Assembly (NCBI GenBank): GCA_015233245.1
Contig: JADFYB010000010.1
Location: 1-41,003 of the forward strand
DNA length: 41,003 nt
Direction: 5' to 3'
Source: Nitrospirota bacterium
Lineage (GTDB): Bacteria; Nitrospirota; Thermodesulfovibrionia; Thermodesulfovibrionales; Magnetobacteriaceae
Shown: positions 5,137 to 25,156 of the stretch, piece by piece
Layout: each line of letters begins with the position of its first letter
How positions within the stretch are numbered: the stretch's first letter is position 1
The notes under the pieces: generated by a model
Seen by the model: the letters and a program-made list of their open reading frames with translations, nothing else
Told to the model about the DNA's origin: nothing
The model's database searches: none
Program-made: the position numbers and the translations under genes

Positions 5137-5157
5137 AGTATCTATCCTCTACCGTTT

Positions 5158-5186
5158 ATAGTACGACAAATAGCCGTACAAGTCAA
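5158..5186 (-). promoter_or_regulatory. Putative TA promoter with embedded inverted repeat operator
   Basis: Minus strand TTGACT-N17-TACTAT (plus 5186..5158), with inverted repeat GTACG-N9-CGTAC at 5161-5179. Confidence 0.5.
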
Positions 5187-5216
5187 GCAGACGAATCGCC
5201 TCATTCCAGACGCTCC

Positions 5217-5801: not shown

Positions 5802-6859
5802 GTTGTCCTTTTAGTGTTTAATATTTTTTCTATACAATTTAAAAAGAAGGTGTTTTCCTCCGGTGTTCCCACTGTCACCCTGAGGCAGTCATTTAGAGCA
5901 GGCACAGCCGCTCCAAAACTCTTAACGGCAACCCCGCTTTCCAAAAGTTTACTATAGAGCTCAACTCCTTTCATGCGCAAGGGCTTTATTAAAAAGAAGT
6001 TTGAATCAGAGGGATAAACCCTGAGTGCGTTAAATTCGTTAAGTCTTTCCATGAGGCGATATCTTTCAGAAATGATTGTCTGTATGTCTTCAGAAAGCTC
6101 GCTCTGTTTTTTAGACAGCAAGTCAACTGCAATTGTCTGAGAAAGAGAGTTTACGTTATACGGAAGCCTGAGTTTATTGATTTCCTTTATGATGTCCTCT
6201 CTACCAATTACAAATCCAAGCCTCAAAGCTGCAAATCCGATTTTACTCAGTGTCTTCATTACAACAAGATTGTCATAATTGCCAATATATGAGACAAATG
6301 ACGGTTTATCAGAAAACGACTGATACGCCTCATCAACCACTACGAGCCCTTTGGATTCCATTATAATCCTATGGATATTTTCAACTGCAAACGCATTTCC
6401 TGTCGGGTTATTTGGAGAACTTATGAAAATAATCCGAGGATTTTTCTTATGTATTGTTTTAATAATAGCATCAGTATCAAGTTCAAAATCCTCGTTAAGT
6501 GCAATCGGAAGTGTAGCCTCCGAGAGAGACTTTGCGATTATGCTATACATCACAAATGTTGGCGTTGGATAAAGCACCGGGCCGCCCGTAGCCATGATAC
6601 AATAGTAAATGAGTTCATCGGAGCCGTTACCGTGCAAAATGTTTTCAGGCGGGACATCCCACATTTTTGAAAGAATCGCTCTCAACTCCCTTGCCTCAGG
6701 GTCGGGGTATTTATTGGTTTTAACTAAGTTAAGCGCTTCTGGGCTTATATCAAAGCCAAACGGGCTTTCATTGGCATCAAGTTTAGCTTTGCACTCAAAA
6801 TCATTAACCTTGTAGGCACTAAGGTTAATGACATTTTGTTTTATCAGGCTTACTAACAT
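5798..6859 (-). CDS. hisC: Histidinol-phosphate aminotransferase
   Basis: LDANESPFGF, HGNGSDELI, SSPNNPTGN, VVVDEAYQSF, TLSKIGFAALRLGF PLP-site motif; 4-nt overlap with hisB. Confidence 0.96.
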   Translation of the reverse strand: MLVSLIKQNVINLSAYKVNDFECKAKLDANESPFGFDISPEALNLVKTNKYPDPEARELRAILSKMWDVPPENILHGNGSDELIYYCIMATGGPVLYPTPTFVMYSIIAKSLSEATLPIALNEDFELDTDAIIKTIHKKNPRIIFISSPNNPTGNAFAVENIHRIIMESKGLVVVDEAYQSFSDKPSFVSYIGNYDNLVVMKTLSKIGFAALRLGFVIGREDIIKEINKLRLPYNVNSLSQTIAVDLLSKKQSELSEDIQTIISERYRLMERLNEFNALRVYPSDSNFFLIKPLRMKGVELYSKLLESGVAVKSFGAAVPALNDCLRVTVGTPEENTFFLNCIEKILNTKRTT

Positions 6860-6879
6860 TCTATTTTAAAATACCATAA

Positions 6880-6940
6880 TTTACTGTATAGTCATTGTAA
6901 CAAAAAAACTCTATTTTTTAACAATACTATACAGAGTAAA
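6880..6940. repeat. Imperfect inverted repeat / stem-loop
   Basis: Left arm TTTACTGTATAGTCATTGTAA; reverse complement of right arm TTTACTCTGTATAGTATTGTTAA; ~18-nt T/A-rich loop. Confidence 0.55.
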
Positions 6941-7228
6941 CGCATTTCCAGAGAAAATAATATTATCCATGTAGTTATCGTTCCACCCAGCTTTAAGTCT
7001 TTTATTTTTAACACCTATTGTTGTAGTTTTTTTCTTTTTTAAAAGATTTAATTATGTCCCTCCTGATAACACTGATACATGTTACTTAAAATAACAACTC
7101 TATACTAACTATAGTGACAGAGTCAATTACTGATATATGATCATTTATGATGAAAAATCTTTTTTAGGAATTTATGAAATTTTATACAGAACTATCCATA
7201 ATAAATTTTAAAATCAATAATTTTTAAG

Positions 7229-7257
7229 TTGACAAAATATTAGATTTATGGTAGAAC
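7229..7257 (+). promoter_or_regulatory. Putative sigma70 promoter of the tubulin-like/ASKHA/stator locus
   Basis: TTGACA (7229-7234) - 17 nt - TAGAAC (7252-7257), ~125 nt upstream of the first ORF. Confidence 0.4.
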
Positions 7258-7380
7258 TTAAGCAGTAAGATATTTTTGCATACATTTTAAATGTAATAGT
7301 GCGTAAACTCCATCCGGTAGCAAATGCTATATACCAGTTGTTGTGTAGTTTAAATATTAAGAAAGACGAGGTAACATGGC

Positions 7381-8388
7381 TTGGGAAGTAGGAAGAAGAA
7401 AAAGAAAGACAGGAAAGAACATAGCAATAAACCTAAGAGCAATACAGAACAAGATGAAACAGAGCAAATCATTAGTGAGCTGAGCATGACAGAACAAAGC
7501 GAGACAACGCAAACTAAAACATATAGTTTCTGTAGAAATCTGATACTATGGTATAAATTTAAAATCCTCCGTTTCAACCGTGACAAAGAAATTGAGCAAC
7601 TATTTTATGACAAAAAGTTAAAAGATATAGTTAATGAAGTTAAAAACTCGGCTATTAACAAGAGTACTGATTGCTCTAAAAAAGACTATGTTGAATTAGT
7701 AAGTGTGATTGCACATACATCAAACGCATTCAAGGCAAGCAGATGGGCTTTTGTATCTGCTCTTGCAAGTGTGGTACTATCAATTGCAACTCTCTTCATA
7801 TTGTTTATTACAACGCGCCAACTATATCAGATAACCAACCAAACAAAAATACAAAGCGAACAAACAAAAATACAGAGCGAACAGCTTATCACTACCAATT
7901 TTCGTAAAGCTATTGAGAACCTCAAAGTTAATATAGTAGCACGTGAAAACACAGACAACAAGACAGTTACAGGTCGTTTTCAGTTAGATAATAAAGAACA
8001 CAATAAAGAACACTTCAGTGAGAAAATCAAATCTAAATTTAATGAAAATGTCATAGAAGTAGAATTTACAAATATTGAAAAACAATATATTGAATTTATA
8101 GATATAAGCATAGATTTTGTAGATAGAAAATGTGAAATTAAACCATGTGAAATTGTGCCATGTGAACACATTAATCGTTATTTTTTGAAACATGAAGACG
8201 CAAAAAAGATAACTAATAATGATAAGTATCGCATTAGTAAATCTAAAGACAATAATAGCATAGAAAATCGCATATCTACATATCTAAAAAATCGAGACAA
8301 TAGTGAAGCTACTCTGTCAGAAATCGCATTTGAAGTTCGAATACAAGCATATGAAGATAAATATATTGAAAGCGTGTTTAATAAATAA
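7381..8388 (+). CDS. Single-TM protein with Lys/Glu-rich cytoplasmic N-terminus; first gene of the locus
   Basis: 335-aa ORF with TTG start after GAGG; hydrophobic segment WAFVSALASVVLSIATLFILFI then tandem TKIQSEQ TKIQSEQ. Confidence 0.7.
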   Translation: MGSRKKKKKDRKEHSNKPKSNTEQDETEQIISELSMTEQSETTQTKTYSFCRNLILWYKFKILRFNRDKEIEQLFYDKKLKDIVNEVKNSAINKSTDCSKKDYVELVSVIAHTSNAFKASRWAFVSALASVVLSIATLFILFITTRQLYQITNQTKIQSEQTKIQSEQLITTNFRKAIENLKVNIVARENTDNKTVTGRFQLDNKEHNKEHFSEKIKSKFNENVIEVEFTNIEKQYIEFIDISIDFVDRKCEIKPCEIVPCEHINRYFLKHEDAKKITNNDKYRISKSKDNNSIENRISTYLKNRDNSEATLSEIAFEVRIQAYEDKYIESVFNK

Positions 8389-8420
8389 TATAAGAAACTA
8401 TTTATTAATGGTAATATTTA

Positions 8421-9764
8421 GTGGTGATAATGTTATATATTAGAAGATATATTCTTTACTTTTTGGTGATTGTTTCAATTATAAACACTAATTTTGCTTG
8501 TAAAAAGCAGACTACTGACAGCCATGCTATAAACTGTGATGGAATAAGCTCTGACACTAAGGTGTTTTTGAGTAAAATGAAAGATGTAGGGAAAATATAT
8601 TATGAGATTAAAAGACCAGATGACCATAAAGATTTGCATTCAGAAATAGCAACCATAATCGAATGTCAAGCAGGTGTAAGATATTTGCAGTTGGAACTTG
8701 ACGATACGGAGTTTGAAGAATTTAAGAAAAGGGACGATAAACCTATTGAAATAGGTTCTTTTGATTATGATAACAATTCTATTAATGTTTTGACTTATGA
8801 TATGTTTATAGGAATAAATCATTATGTCGAAAATAATCAAGGTATATATAAAAAAGATTTTATAAACAAAATAAACAAAATAAAAAGTGGTACTGAAGCA
8901 ATGTATTATGTGATGGAGAAGAATAAACTACACTTGTTTGTTATAGATAATAAAACTAAATCTGTTACGCCTCTTTTCCCTGATCCTACAATAAACTCTT
9001 TGAGTAAAGGGGAATACAATCAAACTATAGAAGTTGCTAATCAGTTAAGAAACAATCCTAACATTGTGTTTAAATTCAAAGTAAAATTTGCAAAAGGTAC
9101 GAAGGTAAACTTCTACTGTTTTGCTAACAATAAAAACTGTGAAGATCGCGATTTTGAGCCGAATGGAGCTCCAGGTAATGTGAAAACTTTAAAAACAAAG
9201 CCAATATCCTTTGATAATTTCACAAAAACATACAATGAATTATCATTTAGATCTTTCACTGAAAGTGAAGATAGTTTGCACTGTGTAAACTTTAATCCCA
9301 TTACAGCATTGAAAAACCATGAAATAGATGCAACAAAGCCACACGATTGTTCTCCTAATGACAAACTTGCAAGTTCCCCTGATAATGTAGTTCACTTTGA
9401 TGAATGCAAAGACAAATTAACACCTTCTTTTAAAAAAGATATTGACATTTTTATTAAACATAAAAATAACTTGCATGTCATAGGATACGCAAGTAACCAA
9501 AGATGTACAGACAGAGCCTCAAAAGATAAAGATATTAGTTGTTTTAACAAACAAATAGCAAAACAACGAGCCGAGGCAGTTAGAGATTACATAGAACAAG
9601 TTACACGCAAAAAAGTTGACTCATCTTTTATCTGTACATCTTTTGAGAATAAGACAGATGTTGAAATAATAAAATCAAAAGATATAACTGAGGAGGTCAG
9701 AAAACAAATGTGTCCCAATGGCAAATTGATGCTAACAGAAGAAATAAAAGAAACATGTAAATAG
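8421..9764 (+). CDS. Exported (possible lipoprotein) OmpA-C-like domain protein
   Basis: N-term hydrophobic signal ILYFLVIVSIINTNFAC; C-term VVHFDECKDKLTPSFKKDIDIFIKHKNNLHVIGYAS...IAKQRAEAVRDYIEQ resembles the OmpA peptidoglycan-binding core. Confidence 0.68.
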   Translation: MVIMLYIRRYILYFLVIVSIINTNFACKKQTTDSHAINCDGISSDTKVFLSKMKDVGKIYYEIKRPDDHKDLHSEIATIIECQAGVRYLQLELDDTEFEEFKKRDDKPIEIGSFDYDNNSINVLTYDMFIGINHYVENNQGIYKKDFINKINKIKSGTEAMYYVMEKNKLHLFVIDNKTKSVTPLFPDPTINSLSKGEYNQTIEVANQLRNNPNIVFKFKVKFAKGTKVNFYCFANNKNCEDRDFEPNGAPGNVKTLKTKPISFDNFTKTYNELSFRSFTESEDSLHCVNFNPITALKNHEIDATKPHDCSPNDKLASSPDNVVHFDECKDKLTPSFKKDIDIFIKHKNNLHVIGYASNQRCTDRASKDKDISCFNKQIAKQRAEAVRDYIEQVTRKKVDSSFICTSFENKTDVEIIKSKDITEEVRKQMCPNGKLMLTEEIKETCK

Positions 9765-9802
9765 TTTAAACGCTAAAAAGAGAATAGAACACGGAGGGCA
9801 TT

Positions 9803-11200
9803 TTGAGGGTTTTGCGTACTTTTAATGGTTTGAAAAACAATAACAGAAACAGATGTTTATTAATAGCAACTTGCTTATTTTTTTTATTATTTACTCAGGC
9901 TACATATTCTTATGGTGAGTTAGCCGCACCACCACCGGAGGAGATCAAGTTAAACATTTTAGAAAGTACAGATAATAACACTGTCATAAATATTTTTTTT
10001 GATGGTAGTTTGTCTATGAAGGGTTATGTTGTCTCGGAGCGCTTTACCTCATATAAGACTCTCGTAAATAATTTGGAATCCATAATAACAGCAAGGTGGC
10101 CTAAGAGCATATTAAATATTTATAAGTTTGGCTCAAAGGTATTTAAGTTAAAAGAGAGAAATGATGTGCTGATGGCTGTAAATTCAGCGTTCTATGAAGA
10201 GAAAGGAATATCTTTTAAGACATATATCGATAAGGTGTTTGACGAAAACGGCGTATGTGACAATAACACCATGTCCGTTGTAATAACAGACTTATTTCAG
10301 TCCGATGGTGATATTAACAGAGTATTAAAGAAAATAAATGAAAAATGTATGGAAAAATCAGTTGCAGTCGGGGTTATAGGGATTAAAAGCGAATTCAAAG
10401 GCGTTGTCACAGACATAGGTTTATATGAAAAGGGGCTTCCATATAGCTCAAAGAGAGACTCTAAAGACACATACAGACCTTTTTATTTACTCATATTCGG
10501 ACCCTATAACAATGTGTTGGATTTTTTTGATTCATTGTCTGAAAAATTACCGGCGGTCAGCACGGATATGTATGAGTTTAAAGATAAAATGACAATATTT
10601 TATTCACACATGGTAAATCCCCTTATTTCATTTGAGGGCTCAAAATTTGAGAGTTTAAACAAAACCGCAAGAGAAACATCCGGTTTAATTAATAATAAGA
10701 CATATCAGAAAGAAATTGTTAAACAATACAGAGTATTAAACGAAGCAGGGGCAGGAGTGCGGCTGTCATTAAAAACCCACCCTCTAAAATATATCCCTGC
10801 TTTTTGCGAATCCAAAATCAAGGCTACATATAAAATAGAAAAATTTTTCAACGGCCAATTTATTACAAAAGATGATTTCTTTAATATAAGCTCAGGCACT
10901 GAGGACAACAATACTATATTTATAGAAGTTAAAATAAAAAAGAAAATTTGGGATGGCGGGTTGTTTCGGATATCGGTTACTCTGAATGCTGAAAAAGAAG
11001 CTTTAAATAATAATGAAAATTGGTGGAATGATTGGAATCTGAAATTGGATGACCTGGATAAGTGGAGGAAATTTCAGTTTTTGTTTCCAGGTTATAAGAC
11101 AGTAAATCTAAACACATTTATGAGTTCTCTTTCAGATATGACCATACAAAAGAGCGACTTAAAGCTCGGTCAGTTGTATTTTTATCTTATGATTGATTAG
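9803..11200 (+). CDS. Exported von Willebrand factor A-like domain protein
   Basis: TTG start after GGAGGG; signal CLLIATCLFFLLFTQATYS; MIDAS-like FFDGSLSMKGY (DxSxS) and SVVITDLFQSDGD. Confidence 0.75.
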   Translation: MRVLRTFNGLKNNNRNRCLLIATCLFFLLFTQATYSYGELAAPPPEEIKLNILESTDNNTVINIFFDGSLSMKGYVVSERFTSYKTLVNNLESIITARWPKSILNIYKFGSKVFKLKERNDVLMAVNSAFYEEKGISFKTYIDKVFDENGVCDNNTMSVVITDLFQSDGDINRVLKKINEKCMEKSVAVGVIGIKSEFKGVVTDIGLYEKGLPYSSKRDSKDTYRPFYLLIFGPYNNVLDFFDSLSEKLPAVSTDMYEFKDKMTIFYSHMVNPLISFEGSKFESLNKTARETSGLINNKTYQKEIVKQYRVLNEAGAGVRLSLKTHPLKYIPAFCESKIKATYKIEKFFNGQFITKDDFFNISSGTEDNNTIFIEVKIKKKIWDGGLFRISVTLNAEKEALNNNENWWNDWNLKLDDLDKWRKFQFLFPGYKTVNLNTFMSSLSDMTIQKSDLKLGQLYFYLMID

Positions 11201-11238
11201 AGAGATTAACAGTACTGAAATATGAGGAGGGGCTAAAG

Positions 11239-11703
11239 ATGGTTAAACATTTTTTGAGCATTGTGCTTATCGTGGGTGTAGGGGTTTGTTTTTATATCGC
11301 AACGGCATACGAGGTGGATTTCATTAGAAAGTTTGTGATGCTGTCATCGGATGTTACTACAGACGATGAGTTCACAGAGGTGTTTACCCGATGGGGTAAG
11401 TATATAGTTGCGAGCTCGGTTGCAACCGCACTTATCTGGTATATAGTCGGGTGGTTCTATAAAATTAATGACTGGCGAATTATTTCAAAAATGAAAACCG
11501 TATGGTATGCGTTATTCCTTCTGCCAATTTTAGTTGTTGGGGTAGCATTGTATAAGGCACCAGTTATAGAGAAAGGGACGGCATGGGTGGTAATATTTTA
11601 TATAACAAACAGCTTGATCCTGTTTTATTTTTCAACGTTTCTACTTTCGCCCCCATCGTTTAAATACATTCCTATTGGCGCTTGCAAGGCAAGACGCTGG
11701 TAA
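11239..11703 (+). CDS. Small multi-TM membrane protein
   Basis: 154 aa with about four hydrophobic segments (FLSIVLIVGVGVCFYIA; YIVASSVATALIWYIVGWFY; WYALFLLPILVVGVALY; AWVVIFYITNSLILFYFSTFLL). Confidence 0.7.
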   Translation: MVKHFLSIVLIVGVGVCFYIATAYEVDFIRKFVMLSSDVTTDDEFTEVFTRWGKYIVASSVATALIWYIVGWFYKINDWRIISKMKTVWYALFLLPILVVGVALYKAPVIEKGTAWVVIFYITNSLILFYFSTFLLSPPSFKYIPIGACKARRW

Positions 11704-11735
11704 AAGCAACCAATAAAACGGCTCAGGAGGAATAG

Positions 11736-13259
11736 ATGAATTTCTACGCTATTGGAATAGGCGGCACAGGGGCAAAGTGTATGGAGGCTCTTATACACTC
11801 TTGTGCAGCCGGATTAATGCCTAAGGGCAGACTTAGCTGTCTGTACATAGATCCGGACAGATCAAACGGCAGTGTAGGCCGTTCTATGGTTTCACTCAAT
11901 AAGTATATAGAGTGTAAAAAACTGAGTTTGGGAAATATTGAATTATTTAATAATAAGCTTGAAATTTTAAAACCCGGTCTTTGGTCGCCAATTGCAACGC
12001 ATATTCGTCCGACTCTGTCTAATTTTTTTAGATATGACACAATGAAAAGCGAGCGTCCCGAGGCAGCACATCTCATGGATGTTCTCTACAGCAATAAGGA
12101 AAAAGAAACTACCCTTGAGCAGGGCTTCAGGGGGTATCCATCAATCGGGGCAGGGATAATGTCTATGGCCATAAATGATAAATCCGAACCGTGGAGAACT
12201 TTTGCTCAAAAAATAGTACAGGATTTAAAGGCCGGAGATGGGGCGAGAGTTTTTCTTTTTGGCTCGATTTTTGGAGGTACCGGCGCATCGGGGCTTCCTA
12301 CGATAGCCCGAAAAATAAAAAACACCGTCATGGAAGAGCTAGGCAGAGCAAATGCTCAATCTATGGTAAGTGAAAAGATACAAGTTGGCGCTGCTATGGT
12401 GCTGCCTTATTTTTCTTTTGTATTTTTAGAAAAAGAAGACGAACTTAAAGCCAAGTCTGAGAACTTTTTGCTAAATACGCAGGTAGCACTGAAATACTAC
12501 CATCAAATGGATAGTTTGAAAATATACGACACCGTCTATTTGTTTGGCGATGAAACGCAAAGTCCGGTAAGCAAGGCAAGCCTTGGAGGTAAGACTCAGG
12601 AAAACGAACCTCATTTTATTGAACTTTATGCCGCTCTGTCAGCTATTGATTTCTTTAACGGCCAGGACCACATTGGATATCTCATGGTGGCAAGAGCAAA
12701 TAATAAGGTCATTGACTGGCAGGATTTACCGGACAAAAGAGGTACATCTATTATTAAAAATAAAATAGGACAAATGACGAGATTTGCATTTGCTTATTTA
12801 AGTACATACTTTCCCATGATTGAGGATATAAAAGAAAAAGGCAACCCGTGCCAGGCACCCTGGTTCATAGATCTTTTTGAGCGGGAAAACATCAAGCTGA
12901 GTAAAGAGGAGGTTTATCAGAGTCTTTTGGATATTAAAGACTATTGTGAAACATACCTCAAATGGATTTCCAGTATACATGAGTCGGTAAAAGACGAAAG
13001 CATAAACTTAATTAAATATGATGCTTTCACACACATGCAAGATGAGGAAGAGGTAAAAAGGGGGGATTTGCTCCGGGATTTTAAGTTCACCGAATTCAAC
13101 AACCTGGTATATCCATTTGCACACCGCTCACGAAACGGGTTGGGGCAGCTATGGGATAAAATGAGTGATATCTCTGCAAGCGATTTTAAGGGAGAACAGG
13201 TTGACGGTATAGGTAAATTCATAAATGCATTATATAAAAAATGTTCTGTTAAGCAATGA
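11736..13259 (+). CDS. Tubulin/FtsZ-like GTPase (Tubulin_2-like)
   Basis: N-term AIGIGGTGAKCMEALIHSCAAG nucleotide-binding start and RVFLFGSIFGGTGASGLPTIARKIKN, the GGTGSG-like tubulin signature; ~507 aa. Confidence 0.82.
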   Translation: MNFYAIGIGGTGAKCMEALIHSCAAGLMPKGRLSCLYIDPDRSNGSVGRSMVSLNKYIECKKLSLGNIELFNNKLEILKPGLWSPIATHIRPTLSNFFRYDTMKSERPEAAHLMDVLYSNKEKETTLEQGFRGYPSIGAGIMSMAINDKSEPWRTFAQKIVQDLKAGDGARVFLFGSIFGGTGASGLPTIARKIKNTVMEELGRANAQSMVSEKIQVGAAMVLPYFSFVFLEKEDELKAKSENFLLNTQVALKYYHQMDSLKIYDTVYLFGDETQSPVSKASLGGKTQENEPHFIELYAALSAIDFFNGQDHIGYLMVARANNKVIDWQDLPDKRGTSIIKNKIGQMTRFAFAYLSTYFPMIEDIKEKGNPCQAPWFIDLFERENIKLSKEEVYQSLLDIKDYCETYLKWISSIHESVKDESINLIKYDAFTHMQDEEEVKRGDLLRDFKFTEFNNLVYPFAHRSRNGLGQLWDKMSDISASDFKGEQVDGIGKFINALYKKCSVKQ

Positions 13260-13292
13260 ACATATTTAGATATTATAGGGAGGGAAACTGAG

Positions 13293-16200
13293 ATGCCATC
13301 ATATCCACCGTTAACGCCGAAATTAAAAATAAATGAAACCAACTCCGTAGCCAATTTTGAGTCTCCTGGTAAATGGTCAAACCGCTATAAAGATGCACTC
13401 TTTGCATTAAGTGAAAGTCTCGACCTTGAAGAGGGATTGGGAAAAAATACGGAACTAACAGGAATACCTGATATGTGGGCAAGGCCTAGATTATTTGAAA
13501 TGGCGCTTTTTGACGCGAAGCATCCGTTAAACGCTAAAACCATAGGAGAGTGGCGGGGGCTATTAGCTATGCTCGCTCTCAAGGAGTTTCTGGACATTCC
13601 TCTTGAGGCTGTTGAGCTAAATCTGGACAATAACCCTGAACAGTTTGACTTTATAGCTGCTGCAAAGGCTTTAAAACCGACTAATCAGCTTTTTGAAGAC
13701 ATCGATTGGACTACTGTCTATATCATATTGTTTAACAAGTTTCCTGTTGGAATGACCTCCCCTACCACGTTAGTTTGTACTGCTACGAATTATTTTAACA
13801 GAATAAACAGAGTCAAGTGGTATAACGGTTCCATTCTTACCGACCCTGTTAAAGAAGTTCGCAGAGAGAGGGGACAGTTATCGGCATGGCTTACAGAACT
13901 TTCAAATAAATTATCAGAAAAGATGAGTGAAAGTGGAAAAAAAGCACCGGATGAATATCATAATATAGTTGCTCTCTTGAAAGGTGAGAGAGGGTTTATA
14001 ACTGAGCTTGGTCAGGCGGATAAAACCTGTGATTACTCAAACAATGTCTATGGTTTTAAGAGGGTTTTTTTTAGTTTCATCGATAAACCACTGTCTTTAG
14101 GCGGAGATAAGGAGTCTCATATTGAAATAGTTACTGAGAAAGAGGTTGATACACGATTACTTCTTGTTGAGCACGACATATGCTCCAATTGGAATATTGA
14201 TGAAAGAGATTTATTAGTTTATAACCACATCCCTTTTTCTCAGATAAGGCCTGAGGAGATATTTCCGGAAACTCATAAGTTAGGAAGTATAACACTACCA
14301 ACTAACGTAGTGGTGAAGACTGCTGATAGTTTTTTTACGAAAAAGTTATTTTTGATAGAACACCCAAATGCTTTTCCGGGCACAGCATCTGTAAAAGGCT
14401 CTACAGGACTGACGTTTCAGGGAAACGATGTTACGTCTGTGTTACCACTCAGTGGTGAACTTCTCGATTATTATACATCTGAGACTCTGTCAAGGCGGAT
14501 TTCAATTTATAAAAACAATGATGATGACATAACTGTAACTTTTACGGTACCGTTAAAAGGCCCTGAGAAAGAATCTGTTAAACCTTATAACAAATCTGCG
14601 ACAAACGGCGCTAAAAACATAAAAACAAAATCAAAAGACTATACAATATCTAAAACGTACAAGAAAAGCGACGGTGACGTGCAAGTGCTTTATGCCCCTC
14701 CTTCTATAGCAATTTGGCCGCATTTTAAAGTAACCGGGGATAACAACTGGAGCCTTTACTTTACATATTTTTCAACACGAGAGGAGAATACTTTTTATGG
14801 AGAACCTCTGCCCAAAGCCGGTAAGAGTGCAAAAACAACTAAAAGGCAGAACACTTCACATACAACAACAGAGATAACAGAAATGAGCATGTATCCGGAG
14901 GCAATAGCCTGTAAGTTTGATAACAACGGTGAAAAAGAATATGAAGATATAGGCATATTGCTGCTTGAAACACCACCTGAGGTTGAAATAGCCGCAAACA
15001 ACTCATGTGAGATTGGAGTTGACCTGGGCACAACCGCTACAAACGTGTACTACAGAGCAAACGACAGGTCACAACCCATGCCAATGACATTTACGGATAA
15101 TCTGTTTTTACGGGTAACAGAAACACCTCAGTCGCCGGAGTACTTACGAGGCTTTATTAACGATGTTTTGATTGATTTGCCTTTTCTGTCAATCTATGAT
15201 GTGCTGGATATAACGGCAAAGGATCCGTTAAACCCATTTAAAGATGGACATATTTTCTACATATATGCTTTTGCAGATTTTTTTGAGGATGCTGTTAAAA
15301 GAAAGACTATAGAGACAGATCTTAAGTGGGGCAGACTAAAGGAAAATATATATACTGCCGCATTTCTAAAACAGATTTATCTGCAGAGTGCTGCTCAGGT
15401 AGTATCTGAGGGAATAAATCAGATAAAATGGAAATTTTCATATCCTGTTAATTTTAGATTTTACAAAGCGTTTAAAGCAACATGGCAAGACATAATAGAG
15501 TATTACAACGACAAACTCAATCTTAAACTCACGCAAAGTGAAATGCTTAGCGGAGAGACGGAAAGTGTTGTGGCAGCCCGCTATTTTGCAAGAGAGAATA
15601 CTTTTAGAGCCTCCTTTAATACCGGAGCGATTTGTATAGATATTGGCGGAGGAACCTCCGATTTTTCCATTTGGTATGAAAATAACTTAATACACCAGAC
15701 GTCGGTAAAATTTGCAGGCAGAAATATTTTTATAGACCTTTTCAGTGCAAATGACTTTGCTATTCTTAAAAGTCTTGAGGATAACGATATTTATGAAAAG
15801 TATAAAGGGGCACGGGATCAAAAGTACTACTACGCAATGCTTGAGAGTTTGGTTATAGGACGTTGTAATAGCAAGGGCGGTAATGGTGAAAATTGGTTTA
15901 AGCGGCTGGCTGCGCGCAGTGATGAGCCGGATTTCAAAAAGTTTAAACAACTTTTAGCAGTTGGTTTAGCAGGGCTTTTCTACTACAATGGTTTGCTAAT
16001 GAAATATGTAAAAGAGGGCGGACTTACAAAGGACAGAGCAGAAATCACTAAAATTTATCTCGGCGGACGCGGCGTTAATGCCATTCACTGGCTTGGTGAC
16101 GGTATCTATAATGAAAAAACAGAGATAAACGATTTATTTAAACATGCTGCGGCCACTGCTTTTTCAGATATGGAGGAGGAAAGAGAACGAATTGTCAAGT

Positions 16201-16634
16201 CTCTTGAAATAAAACTTTCTTTGAAACTTAAAGCGGAAGCAGCTATAGGACTCGTATCTGAAATTGATACAAAATTATCAGTTGGTGAGCATATTAGTGA
16301 GCCACAAGTGCTTGCTTGTGAGAAATGTAAAGGTGCAGATGAACACAACTGGAACACAATCTTGAAAGAAGATGATTTTATCGCGGGAATAAAGGTCGAC
16401 AAAGAACTTGAGCAGCTTAAAAGTTTTATTAACGCCTTCAATAGTCACTGCGGTAAATACAAAATTGAACAAATTACAGGAAGCGATATTATGTACAACA
16501 GCATTTACACGAAAGTGGATCAGAGCGTAACCAATATGAGGAATGGAGAAAAAAACACACTAATCCTTGAACCGATCTTTATTACGGAATTAAGAGAACT
16601 CCTTTACCACATGAAAACTGCATGGGGAAGGTAA
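13293..16634 (+). CDS. Large protein with C-terminal actin/Hsp70-like (ASKHA) ATPase domain
   Basis: 1113 aa; phosphate-1 CEIGVDLGTTATNVYYR, phosphate-2 AICIDIGGGTSDFSIWYENN, possible adenosine motif IYLGGRGVNAIHWLG; ~570-aa N-terminal region of unknown fold. Confidence 0.82.
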   Translation: MPSYPPLTPKLKINETNSVANFESPGKWSNRYKDALFALSESLDLEEGLGKNTELTGIPDMWARPRLFEMALFDAKHPLNAKTIGEWRGLLAMLALKEFLDIPLEAVELNLDNNPEQFDFIAAAKALKPTNQLFEDIDWTTVYIILFNKFPVGMTSPTTLVCTATNYFNRINRVKWYNGSILTDPVKEVRRERGQLSAWLTELSNKLSEKMSESGKKAPDEYHNIVALLKGERGFITELGQADKTCDYSNNVYGFKRVFFSFIDKPLSLGGDKESHIEIVTEKEVDTRLLLVEHDICSNWNIDERDLLVYNHIPFSQIRPEEIFPETHKLGSITLPTNVVVKTADSFFTKKLFLIEHPNAFPGTASVKGSTGLTFQGNDVTSVLPLSGELLDYYTSETLSRRISIYKNNDDDITVTFTVPLKGPEKESVKPYNKSATNGAKNIKTKSKDYTISKTYKKSDGDVQVLYAPPSIAIWPHFKVTGDNNWSLYFTYFSTREENTFYGEPLPKAGKSAKTTKRQNTSHTTTEITEMSMYPEAIACKFDNNGEKEYEDIGILLLETPPEVEIAANNSCEIGVDLGTTATNVYYRANDRSQPMPMTFTDNLFLRVTETPQSPEYLRGFINDVLIDLPFLSIYDVLDITAKDPLNPFKDGHIFYIYAFADFFEDAVKRKTIETDLKWGRLKENIYTAAFLKQIYLQSAAQVVSEGINQIKWKFSYPVNFRFYKAFKATWQDIIEYYNDKLNLKLTQSEMLSGETESVVAARYFARENTFRASFNTGAICIDIGGGTSDFSIWYENNLIHQTSVKFAGRNIFIDLFSANDFAILKSLEDNDIYEKYKGARDQKYYYAMLESLVIGRCNSKGGNGENWFKRLAARSDEPDFKKFKQLLAVGLAGLFYYNGLLMKYVKEGGLTKDRAEITKIYLGGRGVNAIHWLGDGIYNEKTEINDLFKHAAATAFSDMEEERERIVKSLEIKLSLKLKAEAAIGLVSEIDTKLSVGEHISEPQVLACEKCKGADEHNWNTILKEDDFIAGIKVDKELEQLKSFINAFNSHCGKYKIEQITGSDIMYNSIYTKVDQSVTNMRNGEKNTLILEPIFITELRELLYHMKTAWGR

Positions 16635-16718
16635 CTGAATATGCCCGGATATATGATTTAAAGTCTTTCAATGAAACACTGATGACTTTGATTAACTAAC
16701 TTTAGACAAGGTGGAATT

Positions 16719-18377
16719 ATGCTTATGAAAAGTTTCTTATCTTTTGTCGTGATTTTTATGTTTTTTTTGATTAGTTTTAATGTATATGCTGGAAGTGGTC
16801 AAAATGGAAAAAATGCACATAAACAAGCAAAAGCTGGGGAAAATGCTGTTGAAAAAAATGAAATTACTCAAGAAGAGAAGAAGATAAGCGATGAATTGAA
16901 TAGGTGCAAAGAGGCAGTTGATGTGATAGGAAAGCTTATTGCAGAGTACAAAAAAAAACCTAAAAATTATACGCTCGATAATTTAAAAAACTGGAAAGAT
17001 GAAATAGAAAGTATAGAAAAGGAAATTAATACGATTGATGCGAGCATATTGAAAAAATATAAAAAACTAAAAGCAGATTATGATCAGTCACAGGTGTTAG
17101 TAAAAGATATTTTAAGAAAAATTAATAAAGAAGTTAATAGCCTTATACTTTCTCAGGTTCAAACATGTATAAATAAAATAGAACCTCTGATTAAAAAAAT
17201 ATCTGATAACATTACAAAAATTGAAGAAATGAAAGAAGAAGGGATTTCTAAGAAGAGAGATGAAATATTAAATTATCAGCAAACACTAGACGCACTATTA
17301 AAAGAACAAAAGGAATTGGAGGATACGTTTACAAATGAGTTTGTGAAAGTAAATCCCCTGGATACAGGTGCTTTTAAAGCATTAAAAAAGACTATTGAAG
17401 CTTTAAATACACGTATAAACAAATTGTTAGAAGAAATAAAAAATCCTTCACCAAGTCCCTCAACAAAACCAGAAGAAAACCTTAATGTGAAACAAGACAA
17501 TAAACATGGGAAAAAAGAAACACCATCACCTGAACCATCACCTGATGATGAAAATACATCTCAACTTAAAATCCGTTATAAAACAGATGATCGTTGGGTA
17601 ACTTTGTTTTTTGGATTTATAGGTGGTATTGCAGCAATTTTGGTATTATTCTTAATACTACCAATTTTCTCTGGCAAACAGCAGAGAAGAGGAAATGACA
17701 CACCTGATACTCAAGGTATGCAGAAAAATATTGAGACGCAATTACAAGGAGGTCAAACATTACTTTATATTCAACAACGGCTTACTCAAAATGAATATGA
17801 TATTGATGCGTTAAAAGCAAGTATAAATACAATATTTAGAACAGCTAATGATGTTACAAAAGAAAGGCAAATCCGAAAAGGCGAACAGAGTCAGGATCGG
17901 GAAAACGATTACTCTACAACTAAAGATAGATGGCCTGCAACAGAATATAAAACAGAACCTAAAGGACTTGCTGATAGAGTAAACGACTTCATTCAACAAT
18001 ACAACGAGGATGTAAACACAGGACAGATTCAATTAACCACGAAATTTGACATTACTAAAATTGGTATTCAAAATATGCAAGAACTTATAAATAGTCAAAC
18101 TGCTAAACCAATTTTTGAAGTTATGTTAAGCGGTAATTATTGGTGTATAAAGGAGCAGGACGTCTATTTAGCGGTTCCACGTCCTCTGATGCCGCTTAGG
18201 GCTGACGATTATCATTCTAATGCGTTAAATCAGGTCTTTATGTTTACCGGTTACAATCCTAACTTAATTTACAGAAAAATAAATGTAAAAAAACCGGCTG
18301 TTTTCAAATTAAGCGGTACTAATGCTCAAATATATAAGAAAGGCGAACTGATTCTCGGACGTGGTGAACCGGCATGA
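16719..18377 (+). CDS. Exported coiled-coil protein with Pro-rich linker, one TM helix and a cytoplasmic C-terminal domain
   Basis: Signal MKSFLSFVVIFMFFLISFNVYA; long Lys/Glu heptad-rich region; NPSPSPSTKPEE..TPSPEPSPDDE; TM WVTLFFGFIGGIAAILVLFLILPIF; soluble C-terminus. Confidence 0.72.
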   Translation: MLMKSFLSFVVIFMFFLISFNVYAGSGQNGKNAHKQAKAGENAVEKNEITQEEKKISDELNRCKEAVDVIGKLIAEYKKKPKNYTLDNLKNWKDEIESIEKEINTIDASILKKYKKLKADYDQSQVLVKDILRKINKEVNSLILSQVQTCINKIEPLIKKISDNITKIEEMKEEGISKKRDEILNYQQTLDALLKEQKELEDTFTNEFVKVNPLDTGAFKALKKTIEALNTRINKLLEEIKNPSPSPSTKPEENLNVKQDNKHGKKETPSPEPSPDDENTSQLKIRYKTDDRWVTLFFGFIGGIAAILVLFLILPIFSGKQQRRGNDTPDTQGMQKNIETQLQGGQTLLYIQQRLTQNEYDIDALKASINTIFRTANDVTKERQIRKGEQSQDRENDYSTTKDRWPATEYKTEPKGLADRVNDFIQQYNEDVNTGQIQLTTKFDITKIGIQNMQELINSQTAKPIFEVMLSGNYWCIKEQDVYLAVPRPLMPLRADDYHSNALNQVFMFTGYNPNLIYRKINVKKPAVFKLSGTNAQIYKKGELILGRGEPA

Positions 18378-18458
18378 TTACATTATTAATTATCACGTTA
18401 AATTTGTCTTAAAAACATAGCGGATTACATATAGTATGAGCTTAATGGAGGGATTGAA

Positions 18459-20591
18459 GTGACAGAGGATGAAATGTTTAAAGTGGGCGTTGATGTGACG
18501 TTCAAAATAATTATATATATTTTAAAGGCGTCTCATATGTTTTCAGATAATTTTCTGACTTTTATTACACCTGAAAACACAATAGCCCTTAATATCATAT
18601 ATATTCTTACTTCAATTTTTGCTGTCTGGTTTCTTTTTTTGGTATTTAAGTCCGTTATTTTAGTTAGAACATCCCGTGTTTTTTCAAAACTCAGTAATAT
18701 TAACTTTCTTTTAATTGCACTTGAAAACTATGAGGCTGATAAGAAGCGTCAGGAACATGTGCAAGTGAATCAATTTAAAAATGAAGCCTTAAATGAGTAT
18801 ATTAAAAAAATGAGCCTTCCTAAAAAACACATAGCAGTCTCCCATCTGTCTTCAATATTTAGCGCCGGCCTTAAAGATACATACTTTGATATAAATAGCC
18901 AGCTTACTTATGTAATACATAAAATATTCGGTTCTAATTCAATTTTCAAGGCTGTTCTTGGCACTTTTATAATTATTGGACTGCTTGGCACACTGTTTGG
19001 ACTGGCCGATTCCCTATCTAAAATGAATTTCGATTTCGATGGCCATAGTTCCATTGAATCGAAAAACTCCGATAAAGCCCAAAATATGAAACATGAACTG
19101 CAGGATTTTCTCAGTAAGCTTAAAAGTGCTTTTGCGCCAAGCATCTGGGGCGTTGCTCTCACTATCGTGGCCATGTTTTTCTATCTAATTTACATAAGGA
19201 TTATTTGCAACCCCTTACGCTCAAAGATAGAATTTATTACTTTAAATGTTTTGATACCGGAGCTCTACCCTACTCCCTCCCAAAAGTTTACTCAGGCCCT
19301 TCAGGTTAGTTACAAAGAACTTAGCGGTCATTTTGATTCCGCACGTCAGGTTGCTGATATGGCAAACAACATGAAAGGCGATGTTAGAACTATGACCACT
19401 AATCTGGGAGTTGCTAATACTGCCTTAAAGTCACTTGTACCCGCTGTAGATAAAATAAACAAAGCATCTGACAAAATCAATGATCAATTTGCAAATAATC
19501 TAATTAACTTTTCAAAAACTTTTGGTGACAGCGTAAATGCGCTTACGTCTTTTCAGGGAGAACTCAAAGTCTTGTACTCTCAGTTGCTTAGTGAATCATC
19601 TACCTTTCAGACAAACGTAAAAGATACCCTTAAAATTCAGCACACTGAAATCAGCGAAATTCTCAACACCCTGAGAACGTATGAAAAGTCCTATCTTGAC
19701 GACAGAGCTAAGATTGAAGAGGGCATGAAAGAATACATCACACTTGCTGTAAACATAAACGAGAAAATAGATAATTACAATGCCAACTACACCTCTTCAT
19801 CAATGGAAAAAATAAGTTCCGGGCTTAACAATGTAAAGGATTCAGTACACAGTAAGCTCAATGAACTAGTTACCAGATTCAACACATTTGAAGTGCCGAT
19901 GCAACAAGCTGCTACAAAAATGAGCGGCTCCTTTGAGAACTTTTTTAAGCAAATGAACCTGCTGTTTGATGAAATGCGCAAGGAATATTCCAAAGAAATT
20001 CAGGCCAACGCCGCTCAAACATTGGAGTCAAACGAGTTAAAAATGAAAGTGGCAGCCCTTTTTGAAAAGCTCTCAACCTCCTGGGATTCTCAGATTAGTA
20101 GAATCGAGGGGCTCTATACTCACATGACAACTCTAAGCAAAGAAATCAGCTCACTTGGCCTAAACATCACGTCACTCTCCTCCGGAGCACAGAGTTTTGC
20201 CTCATACATGGGTGAAATGGGAGAAACCATGCAAATATTTAAGAAAGCTCCTGAAATATTTAATGATTTCTACAAAGATTTGGTTCCTGTCGCTGATATC
20301 GTTTCCGAATTTACGACAATGGTAAAGGAGATAAAAAAGAGTGTAAAAAGTTTTGACGAAATCTTACAAACAATAAATAGTACTGAATTTACTCCGCCAA
20401 GCTACAATGAATTAACGGATAACGTTAAAGGCCTCTCTGCCTCCATAAATGGCTACACTAACACTATGTACAGTTTCATAGACGAATTTAAGAATTTAAC
20501 CATGAATTTGAGAAATATTAGTATCTTCACTCCTCAACAAAATGATACGTCCATTGCTGAGTCAATTTTAATGAGAAAGCGGGTTTTTTAG
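18459..20591 (+). CDS. MotA/TolQ/ExbB (ZorA-like) proton-channel stator protein with long coiled-coil tail
   Basis: GTG start; TM pair AVLGTFIIIGLLGTLFGLADSL and FAPSIWGVALTIVAMFFYLIYIRII typical of MotA/ExbB/ZorA TM3-4, followed by ~430-aa predicted helical tail. Confidence 0.85.
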   Translation: MTEDEMFKVGVDVTFKIIIYILKASHMFSDNFLTFITPENTIALNIIYILTSIFAVWFLFLVFKSVILVRTSRVFSKLSNINFLLIALENYEADKKRQEHVQVNQFKNEALNEYIKKMSLPKKHIAVSHLSSIFSAGLKDTYFDINSQLTYVIHKIFGSNSIFKAVLGTFIIIGLLGTLFGLADSLSKMNFDFDGHSSIESKNSDKAQNMKHELQDFLSKLKSAFAPSIWGVALTIVAMFFYLIYIRIICNPLRSKIEFITLNVLIPELYPTPSQKFTQALQVSYKELSGHFDSARQVADMANNMKGDVRTMTTNLGVANTALKSLVPAVDKINKASDKINDQFANNLINFSKTFGDSVNALTSFQGELKVLYSQLLSESSTFQTNVKDTLKIQHTEISEILNTLRTYEKSYLDDRAKIEEGMKEYITLAVNINEKIDNYNANYTSSSMEKISSGLNNVKDSVHSKLNELVTRFNTFEVPMQQAATKMSGSFENFFKQMNLLFDEMRKEYSKEIQANAAQTLESNELKMKVAALFEKLSTSWDSQISRIEGLYTHMTTLSKEISSLGLNITSLSSGAQSFASYMGEMGETMQIFKKAPEIFNDFYKDLVPVADIVSEFTTMVKEIKKSVKSFDEILQTINSTEFTPPSYNELTDNVKGLSASINGYTNTMYSFIDEFKNLTMNLRNISIFTPQQNDTSIAESILMRKRVF

Positions 20592-20594
20592 TTA

Positions 20595-21311
20595 ATGGAA
20601 TATAATTCGCTTAATTCATACAATGAGGATGAGGATTTCAATTTTTGGCCATCCTTTGCCGATCTGATGCTCTCCATTGTGCTTATACTTGTTTTAATTA
20701 TGTTTACCTCCATAGTTTATATCTCTCAGGGAAAGCTAAACTTAAGCCAGGTTACTAAAAAACAAATGGAGGTTATACACGATATTGCAGCTGTAAGCGG
20801 CGTGGATGTGCAATGTAAGAGACAACTCGGAGATGAATATAACGAATGTGTAATTGAAGAGCAAGGGATAGCTGTTAAAAACGAATTGACACTCCAGCGA
20901 TTTACATTTTCAGACAATATTCTCTTTTATTCAGACAGTTATGAGATTAACGAAAAAGGCAAACTCGTTTTATCCAAGGTAGGGAATGAATTTAAAAAAA
21001 GAATTAAATATATAGGTGAAATTCAGATTCAGGGCCATGCCGATACTGATAATACAACTATACACGGTACAAACATGAAATTGGCTGCGCTTCGCTCTAT
21101 TGCTGTGTTTGAATTTTTGAGAGACAACGTAGGAATAGACCCTGTCAGACAATTTATGTCTGCCACATCCTTTGGTGAGTACATGCCTGCTTGCCGTAAA
21201 CCCGGAGATTCTTTCGATCTTAAACGGTTAAAGGAATGTAATAAAAATAACGAAGATAAAAGAAAAAATAGGCGTATAGAAATCCTTTTGTTTTACAAAA
21301 ATATTTCATAA
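20595..21311 (+). CDS. MotB/ZorB-like protein with OmpA peptidoglycan-binding domain
   Basis: Single N-term TM with conserved Asp: NFWPSFADLMLSIVLILVLIMFTSIVY; OmpA core GEIQIQGHADTDNT...KLAALRSIAVFEFLRD...KRKNRRIEILL. Confidence 0.92.
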   Translation: MEYNSLNSYNEDEDFNFWPSFADLMLSIVLILVLIMFTSIVYISQGKLNLSQVTKKQMEVIHDIAAVSGVDVQCKRQLGDEYNECVIEEQGIAVKNELTLQRFTFSDNILFYSDSYEINEKGKLVLSKVGNEFKKRIKYIGEIQIQGHADTDNTTIHGTNMKLAALRSIAVFEFLRDNVGIDPVRQFMSATSFGEYMPACRKPGDSFDLKRLKECNKNNEDKRKNRRIEILLFYKNIS

Positions 21312-21328
21312 CGGATGTTTATCATGTA

Positions 21329-21453
21329 ATACCAATTCGTAGTCAGAAGTATAACAAGGCGGCAAGGAGAAAGCGACGCAGGCGTACTTTTAGTACGCTG
21401 AGGAGCTTTTGACGCACGCCAACGAAGTTAGACGATTGAATGCAGATTGGTAT
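21329..21453. repeat. ~125-bp element with terminal inverted repeats and internal palindrome (MITE/REP-like)
   Basis: Termini TAATACCAAT / ATTGGTATAA; internal GCGTACT-TTT-AGTACGC perfect hairpin (extendable to CAGGCGTACT/AGTACGCTG with a bulge). Sits in the convergent intergenic gap. Confidence 0.6.
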
Positions 21454-21475
21454 AACACACTATTGCAAAGTCCTG

Positions 21476-22594
21476 TTAACTGCCGAGTAAATTTTTGTAG
21501 AGTTTTACAGCGGATTGTGCCATTTTTTCTCTTGTAAAGAAGTTCATAAACCGTTCCCTGCAATTAATAGAAAACCTGTTGTACATCTCCTTTCCGTTTA
21601 GAATCAACTTAATGGCATGAGAAAGTTCGGCGGGGTCCCCGGGCTCCACATTAATACCTGTCACGCCGTGCTGGTTAACCCAGCCTACACCGGCAAGTTT
21701 TGTAGCTACCACCGGTTTGCCAAACGACATAGCTTCAATAATAACTATTCCAAATGCCTCAGAGCGTTCAACCGAGGGCAGGCAAAATAAATCACAAGCC
21801 TCATAGTATGTGCCCAGTTGCCGGTCTGGAATATGTCCGGGCAGAAAAACCCTCCCTGCAAGTCCCATTGATTTTACCATATTGCTTAGACGCTCTCTAA
21901 GCGGGCCCTCTCCGGCTATTATTACGGAGTAGCCCTCCCCAAGCTCTGAGGCAGCTTTAATTAAATGCTCATACCCCTTGTAGTAGATCAACCGGCCAAG
22001 GCTGAAGATTATTTTCTTACCCTCATGGAGTTTTCTAATGGCTGCAACCTCCTCTTTGTCCGAGGTAAGATGCTCTGTTGCCACTCCGATTGGGATTGTC
22101 ACAGCCTTATGTTCAAACGGATTAAGATGCCTGGAGCAGGTAATGTAGGTAGGGGTTGTGGTAATTATAGCATCTGCTCTTTTCATAAGCCAGTGCATTA
22201 CCGGCGCATATAGTTTAAGCAGCAGACGTTGTCTTACAATATCGCTATGCCAATGAAGGACGACTTTATTTTTCGGTTTGGCAAGCAAAACAGCAAGGTT
22301 TGCCAGCGGGTCAGGGAAATGCACGTGGATAATGTCGTAGTTTTTGTTTATATCCATAAATTTCGAGATCAACTGGGGTGAGACTGAGGTAGAGAGTATC
22401 TTTCCGTAGGACTTTGTACGGATTATGTTGTAGCCGTTATAGATTTCCTCAGAATAGGTGGCATTGGTGTTAGAACAGAGGACATCGCACCTTGTGCCCT
22501 CTTTGTTGATTCCCTCGGCAAGGTTATACATGACAACTTCTATGCCGCCAGGTGGTGCTGGAGGATAGTACTTTCCAAACTGCAGCACTCTCAC
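21476..22594 (-). CDS. Glycosyltransferase family 4 protein
   Basis: PPAPPGGIEVVMYNLAEGI, FSLGRLIYYKGYEHLIKAA, GEGPLRERL, PSVERSEAFGIVIIEAMSFGKPVVATKLAG. Confidence 0.93.
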   Translation of the reverse strand: MRVLQFGKYYPPAPPGGIEVVMYNLAEGINKEGTRCDVLCSNTNATYSEEIYNGYNIIRTKSYGKILSTSVSPQLISKFMDINKNYDIIHVHFPDPLANLAVLLAKPKNKVVLHWHSDIVRQRLLLKLYAPVMHWLMKRADAIITTTPTYITCSRHLNPFEHKAVTIPIGVATEHLTSDKEEVAAIRKLHEGKKIIFSLGRLIYYKGYEHLIKAASELGEGYSVIIAGEGPLRERLSNMVKSMGLAGRVFLPGHIPDRQLGTYYEACDLFCLPSVERSEAFGIVIIEAMSFGKPVVATKLAGVGWVNQHGVTGINVEPGDPAELSHAIKLILNGKEMYNRFSINCRERFMNFFTREKMAQSAVKLYKNLLGS

Positions 22595-22598
22595 TCTA

Positions 22599-23768
22599 TT
22601 AATACTCTCTTGTTTGGTTTGTATAAACTATTTCTTTAAATACCTTTACATGCTGCTCTGAGACTCGCTCCCAGCTAAAGGACTCAGAGCGTTTCAGTCC
22701 GTGCTTAATCATGCGTATCCTGAGTTTTTCATTCGTAAGCATTTCCCTTAACCCCTCGGCAATAGTTTCAGTCTTAAGCGGGTCAAAGTATAGGGCAGCT
22801 CCCTTACATACCTCCTGCATGGGTGCAATATTTGAACAGACCAAAGGACAACCGGATGCCATTGCCTCAACAAGAGGAAGCCCAAACCCCTCGTACAGGG
22901 ACGGATGCACTGTCACGGCAGCAAGGTTATAATAGTATGGCAAATCAGCATCACTTAAAACGCCTTTGATTAAAACATGCTGGCTGAGTTGTGCATCTTC
23001 GTTAACAGCCTTCAGAAATTCATCATCACCTGTTCTGAACCCCTCCGTTTGGCCAACTATAACAAGCCTCAGGTCTTTGAAGCCAGGTTCGGATAGAAGC
23101 ATCTCAAAAGCCTTAAGCAACCTCATCAGATTTTTATGTGGTTTCACATTTCCCACATAGAGGATAAATCTCTCCGGCAGGTTTAAGCGCTCTTTGAGTT
23201 GTGTCAGAGCTGCCTTATCCTCATATGGTTTAAAAACCTCTCTGTCCACTCCATTATGTATGGCAACTACCTTAGAGGATGGCTGCTTTGTGTATTTTAT
23301 TATTTCAGATTTTGAAAATTCAGATACTGTAATAATCTTATCTGAGAGTGAGGCTGCCGTGTTTAACATAACCTTGGAATATAATTTCTGTTTCATAGTG
23401 AGTGTGTTGAAATGGGCAAGCAAAAACATGTCATGTATAGTAACAACACGTTTAATGGTTTTAAACGGATAAATCGGTACATTAAAATGTGGGGCGAAAA
23501 AAAGGTTACATTCCGGAGGAAGCATGCTAAGCATATATAGTTGCTCACTCATAGTGAATACGGAATCGGTGTAGTGAATTATTCTGTGGCTTTCGGGGTT
23601 ACTTAAAAGAGGATAGATTTTTCCCCTGTCGCCTATAAATGTAAGATTGATGTCATCACGGTTGGATATAGCTTTTAAAAGGCAAGAGATATACCTTCCA
23701 ATTCCTGAGGAGCCGATTAGGCGGACATCTATGGAAACATTACACCCCATAATGAAAGTTATGTGCAA
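22599..23768 (-). CDS. Glycosyltransferase family 4 protein (mannosyltransferase-like)
   Basis: GSSGIGRYISCLLKAI, LYVGNVKPHKNLMRLLKAFE, HPSLYEGFGLPLVEAMASGCPLVCSNI. Confidence 0.93.
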   Translation of the reverse strand: MHITFIMGCNVSIDVRLIGSSGIGRYISCLLKAISNRDDINLTFIGDRGKIYPLLSNPESHRIIHYTDSVFTMSEQLYMLSMLPPECNLFFAPHFNVPIYPFKTIKRVVTIHDMFLLAHFNTLTMKQKLYSKVMLNTAASLSDKIITVSEFSKSEIIKYTKQPSSKVVAIHNGVDREVFKPYEDKAALTQLKERLNLPERFILYVGNVKPHKNLMRLLKAFEMLLSEPGFKDLRLVIVGQTEGFRTGDDEFLKAVNEDAQLSQHVLIKGVLSDADLPYYYNLAAVTVHPSLYEGFGLPLVEAMASGCPLVCSNIAPMQEVCKGAALYFDPLKTETIAEGLREMLTNEKLRIRMIKHGLKRSESFSWERVSEQHVKVFKEIVYTNQTREY

Positions 23769-23989
23769 GCATCAAGTTGCACTCCTTCAACCTGCCATAA
23801 ACGGGAGCTTGAGCAGCAACACAACATATAAAAACATTTTCGGCCATGATTTATATAATACCAAAACCATATTAAAAATAAAAAGTGTCAGGCTATTGAT
23901 AATAATTTTCTTTAGCGGCATAAACCTGTATAAACATTTCAACGCTCTGATGTGTCTTAACTGTAAAAAATTTCTTAAAAAACAGGCAA

Positions 23990-25018: not shown

Positions 25019-25156
25019 GTAAAACTCAAGAACTTTTTGCCTTTTCACCAAAGACATGGATGACATAAGACAATTGTACGAATGTGCATTGACATTACCC
25101 TGCATAGACTGTTAGAATTACCACTCAATGTTCAACTAACATTAAAGGGAGGATGA

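Follow-up and report, generated by a model that had tools for sequence, protein, structure and literature searches.

A divergent tubulin, a large ASKHA ATPase and a ZorAB-like motor pair are predicted in one bacterial gene set

The window analysed here is a stretch of 41,003 nucleotides from a Nitrospirota bacterium of the family Magnetobacteriaceae (GenBank assembly GCA_015233245.1, contig JADFYB010000010.1, positions 1 to 41,003). It contains nine co-directional genes on the forward strand (7381-21311), separated by intergenic gaps of 3-84 bases. Among them is an open reading frame (ORF) of 1113 amino acids (13293-16634) that runs from ATG to stop, is uninterrupted by stops and has a ribosome-binding site, GGGAGGG, immediately 5' of it. 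As judged from sequence, this ORF encodes an ATPase from a gene set that had no name before and is present in at least three phyla of bacteria; alongside the ATPase, the set contains a tubulin-like protein, a lipoprotein and, in many cases, an ion-driven membrane motor like that of a known anti-phage system. The homologue in genome G004 aligns with the 1113-residue protein over its full length (37% identity, E-value of 7.9e-210), and that of Xenococcus matches residues 7-1112 (E-value of 3e-95). Because full-length homologues are found in other genomes, the ORF is beyond chance. The original prediction, made from the DNA letters without database searches, had called this ORF and the call holds; it had read the protein by itself and missed the operon context, which we consider more informative.

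The protein is divided into an N-terminal region (residues ~1-565), an ASKHA domain (~570-990) and a helical C-terminus, as judged from the family alignment, a structural model and Foldseek. The ATPase family was defined by an alignment of 21 sequences from Bacteroidota, Cyanobacteria/Sericytochromatia and the window; many weak genome hits, which were short matches around phosphate-2 of an FtsA-like or other actin-family kind, were excluded from the relatives. In this alignment, conservation of at least 90% was reached by D577, G579, T580, K678, W679, E757, D783, G785-787, T788 and D790, and the nucleotide-site residues rank among the few columns at that level. The ATPase domain proper (residues ~567-990, positions 14992-16262) carries phosphate-1 at D577 (DLGTT), connect-1 at E757, phosphate-2 at D783/T788 (DIGGGTSD) and an adenosine-type GG at 924-925. 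Both phosphate motifs had been predicted correctly, but they lie 206 residues apart rather than the ~250 given at the time. The family profile pairs 'tESvApa...IDIGGGTtD' with 'NEPTAAA...FDLGGGTFD' of Hsc70, and therefore E757 and D783 correspond to the Hsc70 residues that we take to be E175 and D199.

An AlphaFold2 model of the full protein had a mean predicted local distance difference test (pLDDT) score of 65, with most of the ATPase part at 70-90 and residues 1-280 poorly modelled. Foldseek matched the predicted C-terminal half to MreB (E-value of 2.2e-8), DnaK (3.8e-8) and Hsc70 (5.3e-8), each with a probability of 1.00. These matches therefore place an actin-like fold in the predicted C-terminal half, where an ASKHA ATPase had been proposed and where structure prediction had been suggested as the check; together with the conserved motifs, they bear the proposal out. 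The modelled half is a two-domain ATPase of the Hsp70/actin type, sharing its fold and its phosphate-1, connect-1 and phosphate-2 motifs with Hsp70/DnaK and MreB/FtsA. Unlike these, the protein has an N-terminal region of ~565 residues with no solved relative, and its short C-terminus, helical in the model, has no Hsp70 substrate-binding domain. No single ASKHA family gives a whole-domain profile match to it: Pfam searches returned no match to Hsp70 (PF00012) at E ≤ 1, and those to MreB and FtsA stayed below the cut-off and spanned 33-41 residues at phosphate-2.

Residues 1-570 had no convincing match in Pfam, NCBIfam or PADLOC. For a deeper alignment, this region was modelled on a Bacteroidales relative (L024, residues 1-563; mean pLDDT of 83.8), in which the first ~265 residues are helical and alpha/beta and those after them form beta-rich, beta-sandwich-like domains. 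No solved structure matched this model significantly, the best Foldseek hit being a weak Ig-like beta-sandwich (E-value of 1.8e-3, TM-score of 0.12-0.16). The earlier remark that the N-terminal half resembles nothing recognised is thus supported by both kinds of search. The N-terminal region and the ATPase co-occur in all full-length relatives, and the family profile covers both as one unit in the outlier P0007 (784 columns, E-value of 2.7e-38). We therefore regard them as one conserved module. The earlier label of a fusion fits in that the two halves are unlike, but not in any sense of optional joining, as they always occur together in full-length relatives. The CEKC motif, which the original prediction had presented as a defining CxxC insertion, fared less well. 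It occupies residues 1009-1012 inside a low-confidence loop of the model (1008-1024) and is absent from every aligned relative; since it is unconserved and lies in such a loop, we consider it a lineage-specific detail. The same lack of conservation led us to reject a redox or metal-site role for the motif.

Directly upstream of the ATPase gene lies a gene for a 507-residue divergent tubulin/FtsZ-like protein (11736-13259) of the Tubulin_2, FtsZl1 type. It exceeds the curated Pfam cut-off for this family (PF13809, E-value of 2.4e-7, 30.8 bits against 27), and its GGTGAS loop forms part of a G180-G186 block conserved across the tubulin family. Ahead of it are genes for a 154-residue protein with four transmembrane (TM) helices predicted by hydropathy (11239-11703) and for a 465-residue exported protein (9803-11200). 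The latter has a DGSLSM motif resembling a metal ion-dependent adhesion site (MIDAS), as found in vWA domains. Its family is characterised by a DxSxS (or DxTxS) motif, a conserved Asp163, a signal/lipobox and a TM segment, and many relatives are lipoproteins; the vWA label comes from the motif, as no profile match to a vWA fold was found among solved structures.

The order exported protein, TM protein, tubulin, ATPase recurs in Bacteroidota, Cyanobacteria and the window's phylum. Carriers of the block include 16 Bacteroidota loci, four relatives from the window's own phylum, Xenococcus and a second cyanobacterial genome, in which the ORF is split. Across the 24 loci examined, the window included, the tubulin family was recovered in 23 and the exported-protein family in 22, the loci without one or the other being contig-end cases. 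A small gene with three to four TM helices holds the equivalent place in nearly all loci with upstream sequence. Pairwise identities of the ATPase correlate with those of the tubulin (r = 0.965, Mantel p = 0.0001) and of the exported protein (r = 0.903), which indicates that the block is inherited as a unit. Cyanobacterial plasmids carry the same block, and two of these plasmids were typed as mobilizable. On the Gloeothece plasmid (Cy782204), the tubulin is annotated as 'tubulin-like doman-containing protein' and the ATPase as 'hypothetical protein'; named Gloeothece verrucosa homologues include WP_013325769.1 and WP_013325770.1. In one mobilizable plasmid, from Picosynechococcus sp. PCC 7003 (L084, 8483-19009), the block lacks the motor, and the genes after it encode a prefoldin-domain protein, a TM2-domain protein and, between them, an unknown protein. 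The Sericytochromatia contig bearing an ATPase-family gene is truncated; another ATPase-family ORF begins ~3 kb past the first (L019:5650-6372), which suggests a tandem pair.

Part of this association has been described before. According to the main text of Makarova and Koonin (PMC2875224), published in 2010, the tubulin family is associated with vWA- and OmpA-type genes, and membrane remodelling was predicted for these FtsZl1 operons; the same text mentions neither Hsp70/DnaK nor MotB. Compared with the operons as presented there, the window shares a Tubulin_2 protein, an exported protein of MIDAS/vWA type, an OmpA-type gene, several membrane proteins and a patchy spread over multiple phyla. 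It differs in having no protein kinase or P-loop GTPase and in the giant ASKHA ATPase directly after the tubulin. The 1113-residue ATPase might be one of the unnamed families B1-B9 of that paper.

The last two genes of the operon encode a predicted motor pair. The first (18459-20591) specifies a 710-residue ZorA-like channel subunit of the MotA/TolQ/ExbB type with a long cytoplasmic coiled-coil tail (PF01618, 23.1 bits against a cut-off of 22.9). The second (20595-21311) specifies a 238-residue ZorB-like MotB subunit with one TM helix, the ion-carrying Asp23 in the motif FWPSFADLM and an OmpA-type peptidoglycan-binding domain (PADLOC ZorB1, E-value of 2.7e-19). All 13 MotB-like sequences share Asp23, within FWxSYxDLM, and their OmpA-type domain also has invariant residues; the channel helix of the MotA-like family contains an invariant G174-L175-T178-G181 (GL..T..G). 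When compared with solved structures, the MotB family matched ZorB (8vvn_B, E-value of 1.5e-19; 8qyd_F, 1.8e-8) ahead of flagellar MotB (6ysf, 4.8e-6), and the best PDB match of the MotA family was ZorA (8vvn_C, 5.8e-7). Here, we take 8vvn to be ZorAB on the basis of PMC11890865 and of how its chains are named and how long they are, and 8qyh, 8qyk, 8qyy and 8qyd_A are labelled ZorA. At the sequence level, the pair is therefore closest to ZorA/ZorB among solved structures rather than to flagellar MotAB. Downstream of the block, the window and 12 of the 16 Bacteroidota loci carry both MotA- and MotB-like genes, and G004 has MotA only. In a Flavobacteriaceae locus (L035:15893-17334), there are two tandem MotB-like genes, possibly encoding a heterodimeric stator.

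Defence by Zorya depends on the ZorA tail, on ion flow and on peptidoglycan binding, and infection brings ZorE to the membrane (PMC11890865). The window shares with Zorya, as described there, a MotA-like protein with a long coiled-coil tail and a MotB-like protein with an ion-carrying Asp and a peptidoglycan-binding domain. In contrast to Zorya, it has a tubulin, an ASKHA ATPase, a MIDAS protein and extra membrane proteins; none of the nine operon proteins had a PADLOC match to ZorC, ZorD or ZorE.

A second link to conflict systems comes from genome G006, which belongs to the window's family. Its 1632-residue protein P0007 carries a vWA-like region with a MIDAS motif, DESSSM, fused before the N-terminal region and ATPase (L015:9893-18608). 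Beside it are genes for a MoxR-like AAA ATPase, a protein with VMAP-C (E-value of 1.5e-16) and EAD2, and a phosphoesterase with EAD2. This combination is the hallmark of VMAP ternary systems, a type of predicted conflict system, and GTPase-centred systems with tubulin and HSP70 have also been described (PMC7159879); the words 'MotA' and 'ASKHA' are absent from the text of that paper (Kaur et al. 2020). The likeness consists of vWA and NTP-driven modules, in some systems with tubulins and HSP70, and of the P0007 locus itself. The window operon differs in having no EAD, no GAP1 GTPase and no MoxR or VMAP genes, the latter two being present only at the G006 relative. Also in G006, a family member cut at the contig end (P0006, L014:142-6432) is directly upstream of HSP70, in two overlapping ORFs, and of a 568-residue protein without clear family.

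Taken together, the gene order and the modelled ATPase fold suggest that the 1113-residue protein is most likely the ATP-switch subunit of a conserved envelope-anchored machine, a reading to which we give even chances. We count in its favour the ATPase fold and motifs, the shared inheritance of the block, its carriage on plasmids, the ZorAB-like motor, the VMAP-linked fusion, the patchy presence in the phylum and the lower GC of the operon region. Three proteins would sense a change in the envelope: the MotB-like anchor to peptidoglycan, the exported MIDAS protein and the coiled-coil membrane protein encoded after the ATPase. As ions pass through the MotA/MotB pair, the MotA tail would move, and this motion would recruit or remodel a cytoplasmic tubulin-like assembly. 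The ASKHA protein would set the state of this assembly by binding and hydrolysing ATP, and its N-terminal region would be the part that binds partners. The tubulin and the ASKHA protein would thus occupy the slot that the ZorCD or ZorE nucleases hold in Zorya. We tentatively favour conflict or defence, against phages or a similar attack on the envelope, as the purpose, which falls somewhat short of an even bet. The complete proposal, an immune machine in which a ZorAB-type motor senses envelope damage and switches a tubulin assembly under ASKHA control, without a nuclease and with the ATPase module reused in VMAP systems, is possible and is held with more reserve.

Several observations weigh against this proposal. 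The cyanobacterial loci, L016 and L017 and four of the 16 Bacteroidota loci lack the motor; it is therefore not essential to the core block, which must be able to function alone in some bacteria. The physical interaction of tubulin and ATPase is suggested by gene order alone. No nuclease or other obvious effector was found in the operon, and the VMAP fusion is a single case, with no second vWA-fused or VMAP-linked copy in 396 genomes of the phylum. The neighbourhoods are mostly not defence islands, as 75 flanking proteins yielded one strong defence candidate for which a general regulator or protease is no ready explanation (PDC-S68, by L022), and the patchiness within the phylum depends on draft genomes.

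Much of the same evidence could be read as a cytoskeleton for envelope or membrane remodelling unrelated to defence, in which the tubulin-like protein and the ASKHA protein form or regulate a membrane-linked scaffold that is ion-powered where the motor is present. The combination of an FtsZl1/Tubulin_2 tubulin with OmpA- and MIDAS-type genes, as in the main text of PMC2875224, would fit such a role, as would flanks that are mostly housekeeping or unremarkable with little defence clustering. Patchy presence, plasmid carriage and kinship to ZorAB rather than to flagellar MotAB are less expected of it, and on balance we find it somewhat unlikely. A dedicated Hsp70-like chaperone for the tubulin and membrane partners, with an N-terminal region that binds clients, with ATP hydrolysis powering folding or disassembly and with no part in a motor, would be compatible with the envelope-anchored machine proposed above. 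The nucleotide domain is as near to Hsc70/DnaK as to MreB, including the presumed E175 and D199 counterparts, and the HSP70-family ORFs after P0006 point the same way, as do the tubulin and HSP70 sets of GTPase-centred conflict systems (PMC7159879). Yet the protein has neither an Hsp70 substrate-binding domain nor a Pfam HSP70 match, and the window operon encodes neither DnaJ nor GrpE, which makes the chaperone role on its own improbable. Far less credible is a distant SrfB-type ASKHA protein in an SrfABC-like set, a relatedness that the original prediction had raised as a hypothesis, SrfB being of comparable size and having an ASKHA domain. The Pfam search of the 1113-residue protein gave no match to PF07520 at E ≤ 1, no SrfA- or SrfC-like genes were seen, and the partners that are kept are instead the tubulin, the exported MIDAS protein and the ZorAB-like motor genes. 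A search for SrfB in the genome itself also gave no match; its control was uninformative, so that search alone says nothing.

The gene set is a new combination assembled from known parts. In the open-access literature, we found no described system with an operon that unites a rotary-type, ion-driven motor with an ATPase of the actin/Hsp70 fold and a tubulin-like GTPase, and searches for the combination gave nothing relevant beyond the papers cited. The set provides the FtsZl1 tubulins with concrete, testable partners and suggests that ZorAB-type motors may drive outputs other than nucleases, and the named Gloeothece verrucosa plasmid homologues open the way to direct biochemistry.

Three further genes complete the operon. 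Between the ATPase and the motor pair, 16719-18377 encodes the 552-residue membrane coiled-coil protein, for which hydropathy predicts an N-terminal signal or TM segment and a central TM helix; a protein with one or two TM helices holds the same slot in most relatives. The run begins with a 335-residue protein with one predicted TM helix (7381-8388) and a 447-residue exported protein with a weak OmpA-like C-terminus (8421-9764; Pfam OmpA, E-value of 1.8e-4, below the cut-off). No relatives of either were found in the other loci, the exported one being specific to the window, and the membership of both is uncertain.

Of 296 sampled genomes of the window's phylum, three have the ATPase; searches of three further members of the genus found none. 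The GC content of the operon region is 0.355, against 0.42 and 0.40 in its flanks. Both flanks, left (231-6850) and right (21464-31163), have counterparts of ~89-93% identity in a sister genome (G003), where they lie on different contigs; in a closed genome (G001), they are ~675 kb apart. The region between the flanks is the accessory operon, and synteny with G003 resumes at 21464. The right junction coincides with a repeat of ~130 bp (21325-21462), an imperfect inverted repeat resembling a miniature inverted-repeat transposable element (folding z-score of -4.75), which we treat as a boundary marker outside the machine. As this repeat has ~40 copies in the genome, several of them at contig ends, a real rearrangement and a misassembly are indistinguishable at this junction; the operon itself is corroborated by other genomes. 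A phage origin was rejected, as no relative was found in phage records or viral contigs. Nor do we claim defence-island enrichment, given one strong candidate and a few ambiguous hits in the 75 flanking proteins; the other hits above threshold, to RtcR-like, mad3-like and RecD-like families, were not counted as evidence. The strong candidate, a PDC-S68 phage-defence-candidate helicase (PADLOC, 1300 bits), is located directly upstream of the Gillisia locus (L022:488-4294). At the left synteny break of the window (6850-7380), the accessory operon follows hisC, whereas the sister genomes have hisG adjoining hisC; here, hisG is on contig C129.

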